Shown: in pieces, positions 15,595 to 20,848 of the stretch
How the letters are laid out: each line of letters opens with the position of its first letter
How positions within the stretch are numbered: the stretch's first letter is position 1
Assembly (NCBI RefSeq): GCF_002160495.1
Contig: NZ_NFKR01000022.1
Coordinates: 1 to 46,358, forward strand
Reading direction: 5' to 3'
Origin: Erysipelatoclostridium sp. An173
GTDB taxonomy: Bacteria > Bacillota_I > Bacilli_A > Erysipelotrichales > Coprobacillaceae
DNA length: 46,358 nt
Program-made: the position numbers and the translations under genes
Notes under the pieces: model-generated
Seen by the model: only the letters and a program-made list of their open reading frames with translations
Databases searched by the model: none
Told to the model about the DNA's origin: nothing

Positions 15595-17076
15595 CTACAT
15601 CGCTTCTATTTCTGATTTGATAAAATCAACGATTTCACTTTTATCAATTGCTTGTTTATGCAATACTTCACGATCTTTAATTCCTACTAATGGTTTAGGA
15701 ATCATAACCCCTGTTTTTTCATGCAATTTATCAATTGCATCATAAACATTTAATTCCTCACCATAAATAGCTTTATATACAGATTCAGGGAATTTATATG
15801 GTGAAGCAGTAGCTAACAATACTGTTTTAGTATCATCACCACTTTCATGTTGATATCTTTTCAATACTCCATAACCAACTGCTGTATGAGTATCTAATAA
15901 ATAACCCGTTTCATTATAACAAGACTTAATAGTTTCTAATACTTCTTGTTCATTTAAGCACCCTGCTTTAAATTGATCTTTAATTTTTTCAAAAACTTCT
16001 TTATCTACTTCATAAACTCCATCCTGGTTAAGTTTATCCATATAACTACGAACTTTATCCCCATCTTTAGTCATAAACCATACTAATCTTTCTAAATTAC
16101 TAGAAACTAAAATATCCATTGCCGGAGCATTAGTTTTATAAAACTCACGATTAGCATCATATTTACCAGTAGTAAAGAAATCAGTTAAAATATTATTTTT
16201 ATTTGAAGCGCAAATAAATTTATTAACTGGCAATCCCATTTGTTTAGCAAAATATCCAGCTAAACAATTACCAAAGTTACCACTAGGTACACAGAAATTA
16301 ATTTCATCCCCTAATTTAATTTCATTATTACGCACCAATTCAAAATAACTATGGAAATAATAAACAATCTGTGGAATTAATCGCCCTACATTTATTGAAT
16401 TAGCTGATGATAAAAAGACATTATGTTTATCACTTGCTTCTTTTAATTCTTGTGATCCAAAAGCTTTTTTCACTGCAGTTTGTGCATCATCAAAATTACC
16501 ATGGATCCCAATTACTTTAACATTATTTCCAGTTTGGCTAACCATTTGCTGCTGTTGAATCATAGAAACACCATCTAATGGATAAAACACTTTAATGCAA
16601 GTTCCTGGGACATCTTTAAATCCTTCCAAAGCTGCTTTACCAGTATCTCCACTAGTTGCCGCTAAAATCATAACTTCTCGTTGTTCATTTAATTGTTTTA
16701 ATGAAAGTGTCATTAAATAAGGTAATAGCGATAATGCCATATCTTTAAAAGCTGCTGTTTGTCCATGGAACAGTTCAGCCACAAAAACATCGCCAGCTTT
16801 TTTTACTGGAACTACATTTTTAGGAAATAATCCTTTCCCATATGCATTTTTACAAGCTTCATGAATTAATTCTTTTCCATCTTCTGGAACAAAAGTACTT
16901 AAAACTTCTGTTGCTAAATCAACATAATCTAATTTCATCAATGCCTCAAGATCCATTTTTGTAAAATCAAAATCCGGCACTAATAAACCACCATCACTAC
17001 CAATACCTTGAACAATTGCCTGATAAAAATTTATTTCTTTTTGCTGGTTTCGTGTACTTATATATTTTTTTTCCAT
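15595..17076 (-). CDS. thrC: Threonine synthase
   Basis: A 493-residue PLP enzyme converting O-phosphohomoserine to L-threonine. It is the long form (as in E. coli and Clostridia), with the N-terminal STRNQ...QAIVQGIGSDGGLLVP segment, the PLP lysine K111 in HGQTAAFKDMALSLLP, ATSGDTGKAALEGF for the phosphate, and IPQIVYYFHSYFEL and VPSGNFGN downstream. ATG follows AGGGGG at 8 nt. It is first in thrC-thrB and divergent from hom, giving a complete Asp-to-Thr set together with hom, aspartokinase and asd. Confidence 0.97.
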   Translation of the reverse strand: MEKKYISTRNQQKEINFYQAIVQGIGSDGGLLVPDFDFTKMDLEALMKLDYVDLATEVLSTFVPEDGKELIHEACKNAYGKGLFPKNVVPVKKAGDVFVAELFHGQTAAFKDMALSLLPYLMTLSLKQLNEQREVMILAATSGDTGKAALEGFKDVPGTCIKVFYPLDGVSMIQQQQMVSQTGNNVKVIGIHGNFDDAQTAVKKAFGSQELKEASDKHNVFLSSANSINVGRLIPQIVYYFHSYFELVRNNEIKLGDEINFCVPSGNFGNCLAGYFAKQMGLPVNKFICASNKNNILTDFFTTGKYDANREFYKTNAPAMDILVSSNLERLVWFMTKDGDKVRSYMDKLNQDGVYEVDKEVFEKIKDQFKAGCLNEQEVLETIKSCYNETGYLLDTHTAVGYGVLKRYQHESGDDTKTVLLATASPYKFPESVYKAIYGEELNVYDAIDKLHEKTGVMIPKPLVGIKDREVLHKQAIDKSEIVDFIKSEIEAM

Positions 17077-17104
17077 CCTAGAATCCCCCTATGTGATTTA
17101 AATT

Positions 17105-17133
17105 ATTGTATACAATTTATTTATATAAGTCAA
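17105..17133 (-). promoter_or_regulatory. thrC promoter with TTGTATACAA operator
   Basis: On minus, TTGACT (17128-17133), a 17-bp spacer and TACAAT (17105-17110). The -10 box is part of the 12-bp perfect palindrome ATTGTATACAAT (17105-17116), which recurs in the opposite hom promoter. The sequence fits operators of FadR-type GntR repressors. Confidence 0.8.
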
Positions 17134-17198
17134 CATATACTTTATTATAACATAATAAGTAAAATTACTTTGATTACTTCAATTATTATCGTTAATCG

Positions 17199-17228
17199 TT
17201 GACTTATTGTATACAACCGTGGTACTAT
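17199..17228 (+). promoter_or_regulatory. hom promoter with TTGTATACAA operator
   Basis: TTGACT (17199-17204), an 18-bp spacer and TACTAT (17223-17228) preceded by TGG, an extended -10. The perfect 10-bp palindrome TTGTATACAA (17207-17216) fills the spacer. The same -35 hexamer and the same palindrome occur in the thrC promoter. Confidence 0.75.
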
Positions 17229-17258
17229 GTCATAAATCAAAGAATTGGAGGATTAATT

Positions 17259-17330
17259 ATGTTATCGATAGGCATGAATGTAATTGGTATTTTAATAATG
17301 CATACCATTATTATGCCTACTGATATATAA
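17259..17330 (+). CDS. Leader peptide of the hom attenuator
   Basis: A 23-codon frame with its own strong TTGGAGG ribosome site and ATG at 17259, ending TAA at 17330. Residues 1-12 are MLSIGMNVIGIL and 13-23 are IMHTIIMPTDI. Seven of 23 codons are Ile, four are Met and two are Thr, clustered toward the end. These are the end products of the pathway that hom feeds. The stop codon is directly followed by the antiterminator arm. It is too short for ordinary gene callers. I infer that ribosome stalling on Ile, Met or Thr codons tunes transcription into hom-aspartokinase-asd. Confidence 0.7.
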   Translation: MLSIGMNVIGILIMHTIIMPTDI

Positions 17331-17332
17331 TT

Positions 17333-17386
17333 GGTCCTAGTATTAATTTCAAAGATGTTAGGGCCTTTTATTAAAGGCCAATTTTT
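17333..17386 (+). promoter_or_regulatory. Transcription attenuator: antiterminator and terminator
   Basis: GGTCCTA (17333-17339) can pair with TAGGGCC (17359-17365). The latter shares four bases (GGCC, 17362-17365) with the 5' arm of the terminator GGCCTTT-TATT-AAAGGCC (17362-17379), which is followed by AATTTTTG. The two hairpins exclude each other. The terminator ends 20 bp before hom. No T-box GGGTGGNACC motif is present, so leader translation is the likely sensor. Confidence 0.75.
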
Positions 17387-17406
17387 GTTATATAAGGGGG
17401 AATACA

Positions 17407-18561
17407 ATGAAAATCGGAGTAATTGGACTAGGCACAGTTGGTTTTGGAGTTGTCGAAATATTGACTAATGAAAAACAACGCTTAGAACAAGAAATTAAAG
17501 AAGAGGTTGTTATCAAATATGGTTGTGGTCTTGAAGAAGTAGATTTGCCTGAAGGAATTATTTATACTAATGATTTTCACGATGTCATCAATGACAAAGA
17601 AATTGATGTTGTTGTTGAATTAATTGGTGGTATCAACGTTGCTAAAGAAATTATTCTTGGCGCTATCAACAACGGTAAACATGTCGTTACTGCCAACAAA
17701 GCTTTATTGGCTCATCATGGTAAAGAAATTTTCACTGCCGCTAGAGAAAATAATGTCCATATTTTCTATGAAGCAAGCGTTGGTGGCGGAATCCCTGTTT
17801 TAGTTGGTCAAAAAGAAAGTTTAATTGCTAATAATACCAAAGAAATTATTGGTATATTAAATGGTACTACAAACTTTATTTTAACATTAATGGAAACAGA
17901 AAATCTTGATTTTAACGAAGCATTGACAATTGCCGATGGCTTAGGATATGTTGAAGCGAACCCATCATTAGACTTAGATGGTATCGATGCAGCACATAAA
18001 ATTTGTATTTTAGCACAAAATGGATTTAAAAAATTCATAGATTTTGATAAAATTTCTGTTAGCGGTATTCGAAATGTAACTAAAGTAGACATGGATTATG
18101 CTAAAAAACTAGGTTATCGTTTTAAAATGATCGCTCAAGCAAAAGAAGTCAATAATGGAATTGGAATAGATGTTGCAGCAACCTTAGTTAATAAAAAAGA
18201 ACTAGTCGCTAATGTTATGGATGCATATAATGTAATAGAGATCGACAATGATTATGTCGAAAACGTTATTTTCTATGGAAAAGGAGCTGGACGTTATGTT
18301 ACAGCATCTGCCGTTGTTAGTGATATTATTAAAACAACTCAAAAAGAGTACTGGAACCATGATTATCAAGATTGTCAAAACATTTATCCAATCACTAAAT
18401 CAAAATATTATCTTCGTTGTGACCGACCTATCGATGTAGACTATGAATTATATTTTACCGAAAAACAAGATCATATCTATATCACTCACGAAGTTGAATT
18501 AGCAAAGTTGACAACTAGTCTTGGTAATTTAGATTATACAATTTTTAAAGTGAGGGGATAA
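17407..18561 (+). CDS. hom: Homoserine dehydrogenase
   Basis: A 384-residue NAD(P)H-dependent enzyme reducing aspartate semialdehyde to homoserine, the branch point to threonine, methionine and isoleucine. It has the Rossmann loop GLGTVGFG (6-13), VVELIGGINVA and the catalytic-region HVVTANKALLAHHG, then EASVGGGIPVL and GILNGTTNFIL. Most Firmicute Hom proteins are about 430 residues with a C-terminal ACT domain. Here only some 60 residues follow the catalytic part and no clear ACT motif is seen, so allosteric inhibition may be altered. ATG follows AAGGGGG. The aspartokinase begins one base after its stop. The gene is preceded by a leader-peptide attenuator. Confidence 0.96.
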   Translation: MKIGVIGLGTVGFGVVEILTNEKQRLEQEIKEEVVIKYGCGLEEVDLPEGIIYTNDFHDVINDKEIDVVVELIGGINVAKEIILGAINNGKHVVTANKALLAHHGKEIFTAARENNVHIFYEASVGGGIPVLVGQKESLIANNTKEIIGILNGTTNFILTLMETENLDFNEALTIADGLGYVEANPSLDLDGIDAAHKICILAQNGFKKFIDFDKISVSGIRNVTKVDMDYAKKLGYRFKMIAQAKEVNNGIGIDVAATLVNKKELVANVMDAYNVIEIDNDYVENVIFYGKGAGRYVTASAVVSDIIKTTQKEYWNHDYQDCQNIYPITKSKYYLRCDRPIDVDYELYFTEKQDHIYITHEVELAKLTTSLGNLDYTIFKVRG

Positions 18562-18562
18562 A

Positions 18563-19807
18563 ATGAACATTATTGTCCAAAAATTTGGCGGAACATCAAC
18601 ACGTTCCCGGGAAACACGTTCAGTGATGTACAACAATATTATTCGAGAAATTAATAACGGCAATAAAGTTGTTGCAGTTGTATCCGCAATGGGTCGCTAT
18701 GATGATCCTTATGCTACTGATACATTGTTATCAATTGTTAATACTAAACAGTTAACCGATGAAGAAATCGATCGTCTAACTAGTATCGGTGAAACAATTT
18801 CTACTTTAGTATGTAAAGGAGAAATGGCCAGTCTTGGTTACAAAACAGCAACTATTACTAACGATGAATTAGGAATTGTAACTGACTCGACTTTTAATAA
18901 CGCTACAATTAATCAGGTAGAAGGAAAAGATATTATTGAAAAATTAAATTACGCTGATGTCGTATTCTGTCCTGGCTTCCAAGGTCATTCAATTCATGGT
19001 AAAATTACTACCCTTGGCCGTGGTGGCAGTGACTTATCAGCTGTTGCAATCGGTGTAGCCGTAGATGCTAGCGAAGTTGAAATTTATAGTGACGTCAATG
19101 GTATTTATACAGCTGATCCTAGAATCGTACCTGATGCCATAAAATTAGATTATATTAGTTATGCTGAAATGCTAGAATTATCTAAAAATGGCGCTAAAGT
19201 GTTAAATCATCGTTGTGTACAGCTTGCCGCTAGTCACAATATTGCAATACATGCCCGTTCTTCATTCGAAGATATCAAAGGGACATATGTTATAGGAGAT
19301 GAACTTATTATGAAAGAAAATCTTAATCAATTAATTATATCAGGAATTACTGGTTCACAAAACGAAGCTAGAATCACACTTGTAAAAGTTGATGCTACAA
19401 ACAATAGCGCTGGTAATTTATTCCAGAGAATTGCTGATGCTGGTGTTAATGTTAACGTATTTAACCAGGCTTTAGTTGGTGGCGGTAAAATGGATATTTC
19501 TTTAGTTATCAATGACAAAGATGTTCCTGCTGTTATTGAAGTAATGAATGAACTTAAATCACAATTAAATGCTGAACGAACAATTGTCCGCGGTAATATT
19601 GGAAAAGTATCGGTAATTGGAGTGGGAATCAAAAATAATCGCGGTATGTTCCAAAAAGCATATAATACTTTAATGGAAAACGAAATCAATGTCGAAATGA
19701 CATCTTGTTCAGAAATTAATATTTCATGTTATATTGATCGTGATGAAGTAAAAAAAGCTCAGGTTTTATTACACGAAGCTTTTTTAGGAAAAAAAGAAAG
19801 GAAGTAA
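18563..19807 (+). CDS. lysC: Aspartate kinase (DapG-like, with ACT domains)
   Basis: A 414-residue aspartokinase, the first step of the aspartate pathway (Asp + ATP to aspartyl phosphate). The kinase domain begins VQKFGGTSTRS, with VVSAMGRYDDPYATDTLL and the TTLGRGGSDLSAVAIG segment. From about residue 265 two ACT-type halves follow (ISGITGSQNEARITLV and KVSVIGVGIKNNRGMF), the usual allosteric site for lysine or threonine. The opening resembles the DapG class, but which amino acid inhibits it cannot be read from sequence. It is the second gene of hom-aspartokinase-asd, so flux into and through the branch is co-expressed. The symbol is generic. Confidence 0.95.
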   Translation: MNIIVQKFGGTSTRSRETRSVMYNNIIREINNGNKVVAVVSAMGRYDDPYATDTLLSIVNTKQLTDEEIDRLTSIGETISTLVCKGEMASLGYKTATITNDELGIVTDSTFNNATINQVEGKDIIEKLNYADVVFCPGFQGHSIHGKITTLGRGGSDLSAVAIGVAVDASEVEIYSDVNGIYTADPRIVPDAIKLDYISYAEMLELSKNGAKVLNHRCVQLAASHNIAIHARSSFEDIKGTYVIGDELIMKENLNQLIISGITGSQNEARITLVKVDATNNSAGNLFQRIADAGVNVNVFNQALVGGGKMDISLVINDKDVPAVIEVMNELKSQLNAERTIVRGNIGKVSVIGVGIKNNRGMFQKAYNTLMENEINVEMTSCSEINISCYIDRDEVKKAQVLLHEAFLGKKERK

Positions 19808-19813
19808 TTTAAA

Positions 19814-20848
19814 ATGAAAAAATATAAAGTTGCAATTGTCGGTGCTACAGGTGCAGTTGGAAGAGAAATGCTTAGATGTATTTTTCAATTCAACTTCCCT
19901 TTTGAAAGTATCAAACTTTTAGCATCTTCACGTAGTGCTGGAAAAGAAATTGAATTTGAAGGACATAAATTTATTGTTGAAGAATTAACAGAAAATAGTT
20001 TTGAAGGTATTGAAGTAGCATTCTGGTCAGCTGGTGGCAGCATTTCTGAAAAATATATGGAATATGCTGTAAAAGCTGGATGTGTTAATATCGATAATAC
20101 TAGTCATTTTAGAATGGATCCTGATGTTCCATTAGTAGTACCTGAAGTAAATGGTGAAGCTTTAAGAAATCACAAAGGAATTATCGCTAATCCAAACTGT
20201 ACTACAATTCAAATGGTTAGTGCTTTAAATCGTTTAAATGAATATTTTGATATTGAACGAATCATCGTTTCTACTTATCAAGCAGTATCTGGTGCTGGAG
20301 TAGCAGGAATGGAAGAATTATATCGTCAATCTCAAGAAGTATTAGACGGTAAAGAACCGATTGCTAAAACGCTTCCTTGTGCTAGCGATAAAAAGCATTT
20401 CCCTATTGCATTTAACTGTATCCCTCAAGTTGATAAATTTGATTTAGATAATCACTTCACTAAAGAAGAAATGAAAATGGTTAATGAAACCAAAAAAATC
20501 TTCAATAAAGATATTAAAGTAAATGCGACTTGTGTTCGTGTTCCAGTTTTACGTGGTCATTCTGAATCAGTTTATATCGAAACAAAAAAACCAATTGATA
20601 TCGATAAAGCATTTGAACTATTAAGAAATTCTACTGGTGTTGAATTATATGATGATGTTGAAAATCAAATCTATCCAATGGCTAACCTTTTTGTTGGTGA
20701 TGAATTAGTTCATGTTGGACGTGTTCGTAAAGATTTAGATAATCCAAATGCTTTAAGCTTATGGATCGTAGCCGATCAATTAATGAAAGGTGCTGCCTAT
20801 AACTCAGTTGATATTGGTCTTAAAATGATTGAAATGGGTCTATTATAA
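19814..20848 (+). CDS. asd: Aspartate-semialdehyde dehydrogenase
   Basis: A 344-residue enzyme reducing aspartyl phosphate to aspartate semialdehyde with NADPH. It shows the nucleotide loop GATGAVGREML (10-20), the catalytic cysteine C129 in NPNCTTIQM, AVSGAGVAGMEELYRQ and the active-site histidine in RVPVLRGHSESVYIE. Length fits the Gram-positive type. ATG follows AAAGGAAG, 6 bp behind the aspartokinase. It is the last gene of the operon, closed by a strong terminator. No dapA or dapB lies nearby, so this set looks dedicated to homoserine-derived amino acids. Confidence 0.97.
   Translation: MKKYKVAIVGATGAVGREMLRCIFQFNFPFESIKLLASSRSAGKEIEFEGHKFIVEELTENSFEGIEVAFWSAGGSISEKYMEYAVKAGCVNIDNTSHFRMDPDVPLVVPEVNGEALRNHKGIIANPNCTTIQMVSALNRLNEYFDIERIIVSTYQAVSGAGVAGMEELYRQSQEVLDGKEPIAKTLPCASDKKHFPIAFNCIPQVDKFDLDNHFTKEEMKMVNETKKIFNKDIKVNATCVRVPVLRGHSESVYIETKKPIDIDKAFELLRNSTGVELYDDVENQIYPMANLFVGDELVHVGRVRKDLDNPNALSLWIVADQLMKGAAYNSVDIGLKMIEMGLL

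Follow-up and report, generated by a model that had tools for sequence, protein, structure and literature searches.

The window analysed here, i.e. the whole 46,358-nucleotide stretch of DNA from Erysipelatoclostridium sp. An173, contains genes for homoserine dehydrogenase (hom, the first structural gene), aspartate kinase and aspartate-semialdehyde dehydrogenase (asd), which are listed with their upstream elements in Table 1. The thrC and thrB genes, also named by means of NCBIfam, are located adjacent to hom and are divergently oriented. Since ilvA and metA are present in the genome, production of Ile and Met from the homoserine branch is plausible. Upstream of hom, an open reading frame (ORF) that starts with an ATG at 17259 and ends with a TAA at 17328-17330 was shown to read MLSIGMNVIGILIMHTIIMPTDI*. 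The first-pass annotation of this DNA had described a 23-codon frame with a strong ribosome site and 7 Ile, 4 Met (start codon included) and 2 Thr codons, and these counts were found to be exact.

Table 1. Genes and predicted regulatory elements of the hom locus, with positions given for the window
Feature	Position	Strand	Basis
Palindrome TTGTATACAA, thrC side, candidate operator	17106..17115	.	exact match; retained ahead of hom within the genus
Candidate promoter for the leader transcript, sigma-70-like TTGACT-18-TACTAT, extended TG	17199..17228	+	consensus match only
Second TTGTATACAA palindrome, between -35 and -10	17207..17216	.	exact match; conserved in same-genus genomes
Shine-Dalgarno (SD) sequence GGAGGA of the leader ORF	17247..17252	+	sequence; invariant across nine species of the genus
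Stem 1:2, region 1 (SD plus initial codons) with region 2 (3' end of the leader plus GGTCCT), -34 kcal/mol	17249..17338	+	folding; pairing kept in nine species
Leader ORF MLSIGMNVIGILIMHTIIMPTDI, 23 codons, Ile/Met/Thr control codons	17259..17330	+	sequence, conservation, codon shuffles
Antiterminator 2:3, GGTCCTAGTATT : GATGTTAGGGCC	17333..17365	+	pairing and folding
Intrinsic terminator 3:4, GGCCTTT-TATT-AAAGGCC then AATTTTT	17362..17386	+	sequence and fold
hom, homoserine dehydrogenase, first structural gene	17407..18561	+	NCBIfam NF004976
Aspartate kinase	18563..19807	+	NCBIfam
asd, aspartate-semialdehyde dehydrogenase	19814..20848	+	NCBIfam

Three alternative helices were identified in the leader transcript. 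The terminator hairpin (3:4) spans 17362-17379 and is followed by AATTTTT up to 17386, with the hom start codon located 20 nt downstream, in agreement with the original description of a terminator ending 20 bp before hom. It represents the one terminator-like site within 17080-17420, compared with a mean of 0.1 in shuffled sequences. In the antiterminator (2:3), GGTCCTAGTATT (17333-17344) is paired with GATGTTAGGGCC (17354-17365), and GGCC is common to this helix and the terminator. The proposal that pairing of GGTCCTA (17333-17339) with TAGGGCC (17359-17365) excludes the terminator was confirmed, the antiterminator being longer (12 pairs) than had been claimed. The third helix, stem 1:2, was predicted by folding to leave the terminator free when the ribosome is absent. 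The 201-nt leader as a whole exhibited a folding z-score of -3.1.

Regions upstream of hom were subsequently compared in 40 genomes of the window's family. In total, an SD sequence, a short Ile/Met/Thr-rich ORF and a terminator just before hom were found in 24 of these genomes, bearing out the expectation that the frame and its Ile/Met/Thr codons would be conserved among relatives. A further eight genomes (g14 and parts of g7 and g17) contained a terminator without a recognisable Ile/Met/Thr leader, and eight contained neither element. Outside the family, the arrangement was absent from all 33 regions compared, 20 of which belong to the sister family and 13 to other families of the class. Same-genus hom loci, derived from Thomasclavelia records (84-92% protein identity), place the window in this genus or in one close to it, and include leaders such as MLLMGMNSMMIIITSLIMPMNK and MLSMGISLTITITSNSIITPIK, and the sole internal gap in the genus alignment of the ORF ahead of its variable 3' end measures 3 nt. 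Examples from other genera are MTIITIIDAFKK and MIIHMTV (g11), MMITINISKTIMCFLNC (g5), MIKTINSSKTIMCLIYC (g19), MKLMIMTS (g13) and MYKMMTMCISN (g3). Leader length ranges from about 6 to 28 codons, and the sequence diverges freely between genera, with Ile/Met/Thr content and position persisting.

When 30 of the genomes were arranged on a tree of hom, leader state was clustered and required about five changes, a distribution that fits an old origin of the leader with several losses; independent gains may represent an alternative history. The terminator-only loci (L014, L017, L041, L025, L023, L024, L042 and L043; g7, g14 and g17) may constitute a natural decay series, or may possess a non-ATG leader that went unrecognised. 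Oddly placed stop codons were observed in five of the 24 leaders. The leader of G008 (L002/L031) has an early in-frame stop (MLLKGIKLIVMK*), those of G003 and G013 have stops that fall inside or past region 2, and the ORFs of G007 (L047) and G036 continue through the terminator. The hom frame is also broken in the G007 assembly, and a sequencing error is therefore possible for its leader.

The codon composition of the leaders was compared with dinucleotide shuffles that keep the frame open. In the window, 12 of the 22 post-start codons specify Ile, Met or Thr, compared with 6.0 +/- 1.7 in 400 shuffles (maximum 10). Eight leaders of the genus contain 85 such codons among 177 (null 39.6 +/- 5.0), and leaders outside the genus contain 85 among 173 (null 47.3 +/- 5.1), i.e. 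a share of 48% inside and outside the genus versus about 22-27% in the null, above all 400 shuffles. Taken one at a time, Ile, Met and Thr each exceeded the null in both sets (z 3.9 to 6.9), and within the genus the strongest enrichment was that of Met (21 vs 6.3, z 6.9; outside the genus 17 vs 7.5, z 3.9). Leaders of the genus also showed an excess of Ser (z 5.0). Shuffling revealed no enrichment of Leu, Val or Phe in leaders from either set, and a hydrophobic or signal-like peptide in general was consequently rejected, while a chance ORF arising from AT-rich sequence was ruled out by the codon shuffles together with conservation. The good SD sequence, and a frame that is intact in most congeners, would also suit a gene for a small functional peptide with no part in the control of hom; this explanation appears very improbable in view of the divergence of length and sequence described above and of the terminator and hom that follow the ORF in each counted case. 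Moreover, residues are swapped between species among Ile, Met and Thr, and codon identity therefore fits better than a role for the peptide.

The helices were assessed across nine species of the genus by comparing their pairing with that obtained after one strand had been slid. The antiterminator was paired in 87.7% of cells (41-56% when slid), the terminator in 98.4% (11-73%) and stem 1:2 in 93.5% (32-49%), a control that leans in favour of the helices because the pairs were drawn from the window's own structure. Double-sided substitutions were few, amounting to one or two pairs in each helix, and the observed covariation scores were often equalled when letters were shuffled. The check for covarying stems in relatives that the first-pass annotation had suggested came out in favour of the competing stems as regards pairing, which is kept in all nine species; covariation proper is weak, as stem variation is mostly one-sided. 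Helices of different genera are wholly unlike in primary sequence and constant in layout, as illustrated by AATGGTTTGT opposite ATAGACCATT in g11 and GAGACTGTCTT opposite AAGAAAGCCTC in g5 and g19. A duplex-energy test of the 2:3 helix versus shuffled partners reached p < 0.05 for no more than about 40% of the genomes, and a ribosome-position model was therefore used instead.

In this model, only the RNA downstream of the ribosome is folded, with the ribosome set at each codon in turn (per-codon profiles omit the rows for G010 and G019). For the window, a ribosome at codons 4-19 gave a terminator probability of 0.00-0.31. The value was 0.54 at Pro20, and 1.00 both at Thr21 and all later positions through the stop codon and in the absence of a ribosome. 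Prior to synthesis of arm 4, a ribosome stalled no further than Pro20 left arm 3 nearly fully paired, and one at the stop codon left most of it free (0.16). The same drop at the stop codon was observed for the other five congeners tested and for genera g5 and g19; with shuffled leaders as the reference, each of these drops passed or came close to the 5% level. Switch amplitudes in six members of the genus were 0.62-0.98, with the null lying at about 0.1 (p 0.007-0.06 for each member). The positive control, E. coli thrL, likewise switched under this model (1.00 to 0.01), and the window leader flips at its end as thrL does.

The stop-codon step was clear only in three genera (g1, g5 and g19), and was not seen by folding in those with leaders of 7-13 codons (g3, g11, g12 and g13). 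The modelled off state of g13 and of part of g11 corresponds to the no-ribosome fold, and two modes of termination may therefore exist. For G002, G005 and G006, equilibrium folding favoured the terminator even with a stalled ribosome; antitermination in these genomes would therefore be kinetic.

Taken together, conservation, codon bias, alternative helices and the folding switch support the leader-peptide attenuator put forward in the first-pass annotation, and it is very probable, judging from sequence and modelling, that the hom-aspartokinase-asd operon is controlled by a cis-acting ribosome-mediated transcription attenuator. From these features we infer a course of leader translation, stalling, termination in vivo and amino acid sensing as follows. 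Transcription would begin shortly upstream of the leader. Low charging of tRNA-Ile, tRNA-Met or tRNA-Thr would slow the ribosome at codons 4-19, where it would hold region 1 (SD and early codons) off region 2 (GGTCCTAGTATT); the freed region 2 would pair with the emerging region 3 (GATGTTAGGGCC), no terminator would form and hom would be transcribed. With all three tRNAs charged, the ribosome would reach the stop codon, located 2 nt ahead of region 2, and mask this region, so that regions 3 and 4 would form the terminator. In the absence of a ribosome, pairing of region 1 with region 2 would lead to termination as well.

An ordinary 5' untranslated region terminator, either constitutive and partial or governed by an RNA-binding protein or an unknown ligand, with the ORF as an AT-rich by-product, would be compatible with the eight family members that carry a terminator without a clear Ile/Met/Thr leader, and the lack of an Rfam match formally leaves room for an undescribed ligand-binding element. 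We nevertheless consider this improbable, given a codon composition well past the shuffles in 24 genomes, an SD sequence invariant in the genus, a stop codon adjoining region 2 and a folding switch that follows ribosome position, while outside the helices no large conserved aptamer-like sequence was observed.

A real attenuator might also respond to only one or two of the amino acids, for example Thr and Ile as for thrL, with the Met codons being incidental. Consistent with this, some g11 leaders consist almost entirely of Thr and Ile past the start (MTIITIIDAFKK and MITIKTIIDAFKK), and the last control codons of the window leader, Thr21 and Ile23, are unable to antiterminate in the folding model. 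Conversely, the enrichment of Met within and outside the genus, and its dominance, with Thr and Ile, in the g3 and g13 leaders argue for Met as a genuine signal, and sensing of fewer amino acids is accordingly regarded as possible, though rather unlikely. For the three-amino-acid attenuator, a broader proposal, to which we assign about even chances, is that a single leader integrates the charging of tRNA-Ile, tRNA-Met and tRNA-Thr, i.e. all end products of the homoserine branch. Individual lineages would have re-tuned both the amino acids read (Thr/Ile in some g11 members, predominantly Met alongside Thr in g3 and g13, and all three in the window's genus) and the off state (stop-codon masking versus re-pairing of the SD stem). 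The family offers a natural series in which amino acid mixes vary, stops are displaced and leaders have decayed, and which would help to test the evolution of control codons and attenuator geometry and the integration of several signals in one leader. The present analysis also supplies a missing annotation for the hom operons of common gut bacteria.

Other elements were observed in the same genome and in related ones. The TTGTATACAA palindrome, a candidate operator of an amino acid regulator, also occurs in the window's genome upstream of serC-serA (L094 near 1495-1560) and in the promoter of a his leader (L088 near 322-331). The latter leader is His-rich (MKAIKNLQQLHHHHWIT, L088:349-402), precedes hisZ-hisG and is followed by the terminator-like GAGTCATTAGTAAATGACTCGTTTTTTT; it agrees with the prediction of His attenuators in Erysipelotrichales (PMC9413887). 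Most hom promoters of the sister family have a conserved ACAAGTGTTTTT-like motif just after the -10 element and no leader (L068-L087), this motif probably being a different operator. In one member of another family of the class, a SAM riboswitch is located ahead of hom (L102:340-448), representing a third mode of hom control.

The T-box is the usual device by which Firmicutes control amino acid genes. In total, 20 T-boxes were identified in the window's genome, none of which is located at hom or on contig C38; the genes that follow them, as judged by eye, include several aminoacyl-tRNA synthetase genes, leuA, argC, trpE and asnB. No T-box, SAM riboswitch or other Rfam family was found at the gathering threshold in the window, and control of the locus by such a known RNA was rejected; the reported absence of a T-box motif thus proved correct. 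The proposed hom leader would sense through translation of its control codons, in contrast to T-box leaders, which bind tRNA directly.

The first-pass annotation had regarded a multi-amino-acid leader of this kind as not commonly described in this type of Firmicute. This does not apply to ribosome-mediated attenuation as such. Listeria Rli60 was demonstrated experimentally to be a ribosome-mediated attenuator that responds to branched-chain amino acids via a short leader (PMC5864092), and a ribosome-mediated attenuator of S. aureus ilv-leu is likewise supported (PMC5794164); both resemble the hom leader in being Firmicute attenuators of this type and differ from it in governing branched-chain amino acid synthesis, with another operon and other codons. 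Leader peptides have been predicted for hisS/hisZ in Bacillus (PMC2965389) and, for his operons, in Erysipelotrichales, with Erysipelatoclostridium listed (PMC9413887). The latter His leaders are from the same order, and probably the same genus, and follow the same logic, but are predictions only and concern a single amino acid (His) and another operon. Within the open literature, the statement does hold for leaders of hom and for Ile/Met/Thr leaders, none of which was found there for Firmicutes, and the three-amino-acid version at hom in gut Firmicutes appears to be undescribed.

By its computable features, the locus falls within leader-peptide attenuators as a general class, and it resembles E. 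coli thrL, a likeness that is functional rather than one of demonstrated descent, given the different phylum. In both leaders, many codons specify end products of one and the same branch, region 2 lies at the leader stop, and an antiterminator and a terminator are present; both exhibit the same ribosome-position folding profile, and the hom leader would, like thrL, control homoserine dehydrogenase/aspartokinase. The Rfam threonine leader model did not match within 17050-17450, either at the gathering threshold or up to an E value of 10, and the hom leader, judged by this, by its Met codons and by its operon (hom-ask-asd with divergent thrC-thrB, unlike the E. coli thr operon), lies outside the enterobacterial thr leader family. 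A T-box-rich Firmicute thus probably employs thr-type translational sensing for the entry enzyme to Thr, Met and Ile, with a leader that, unlike thrL (Thr and Ile only), is also enriched for Met and would read this amino acid too.
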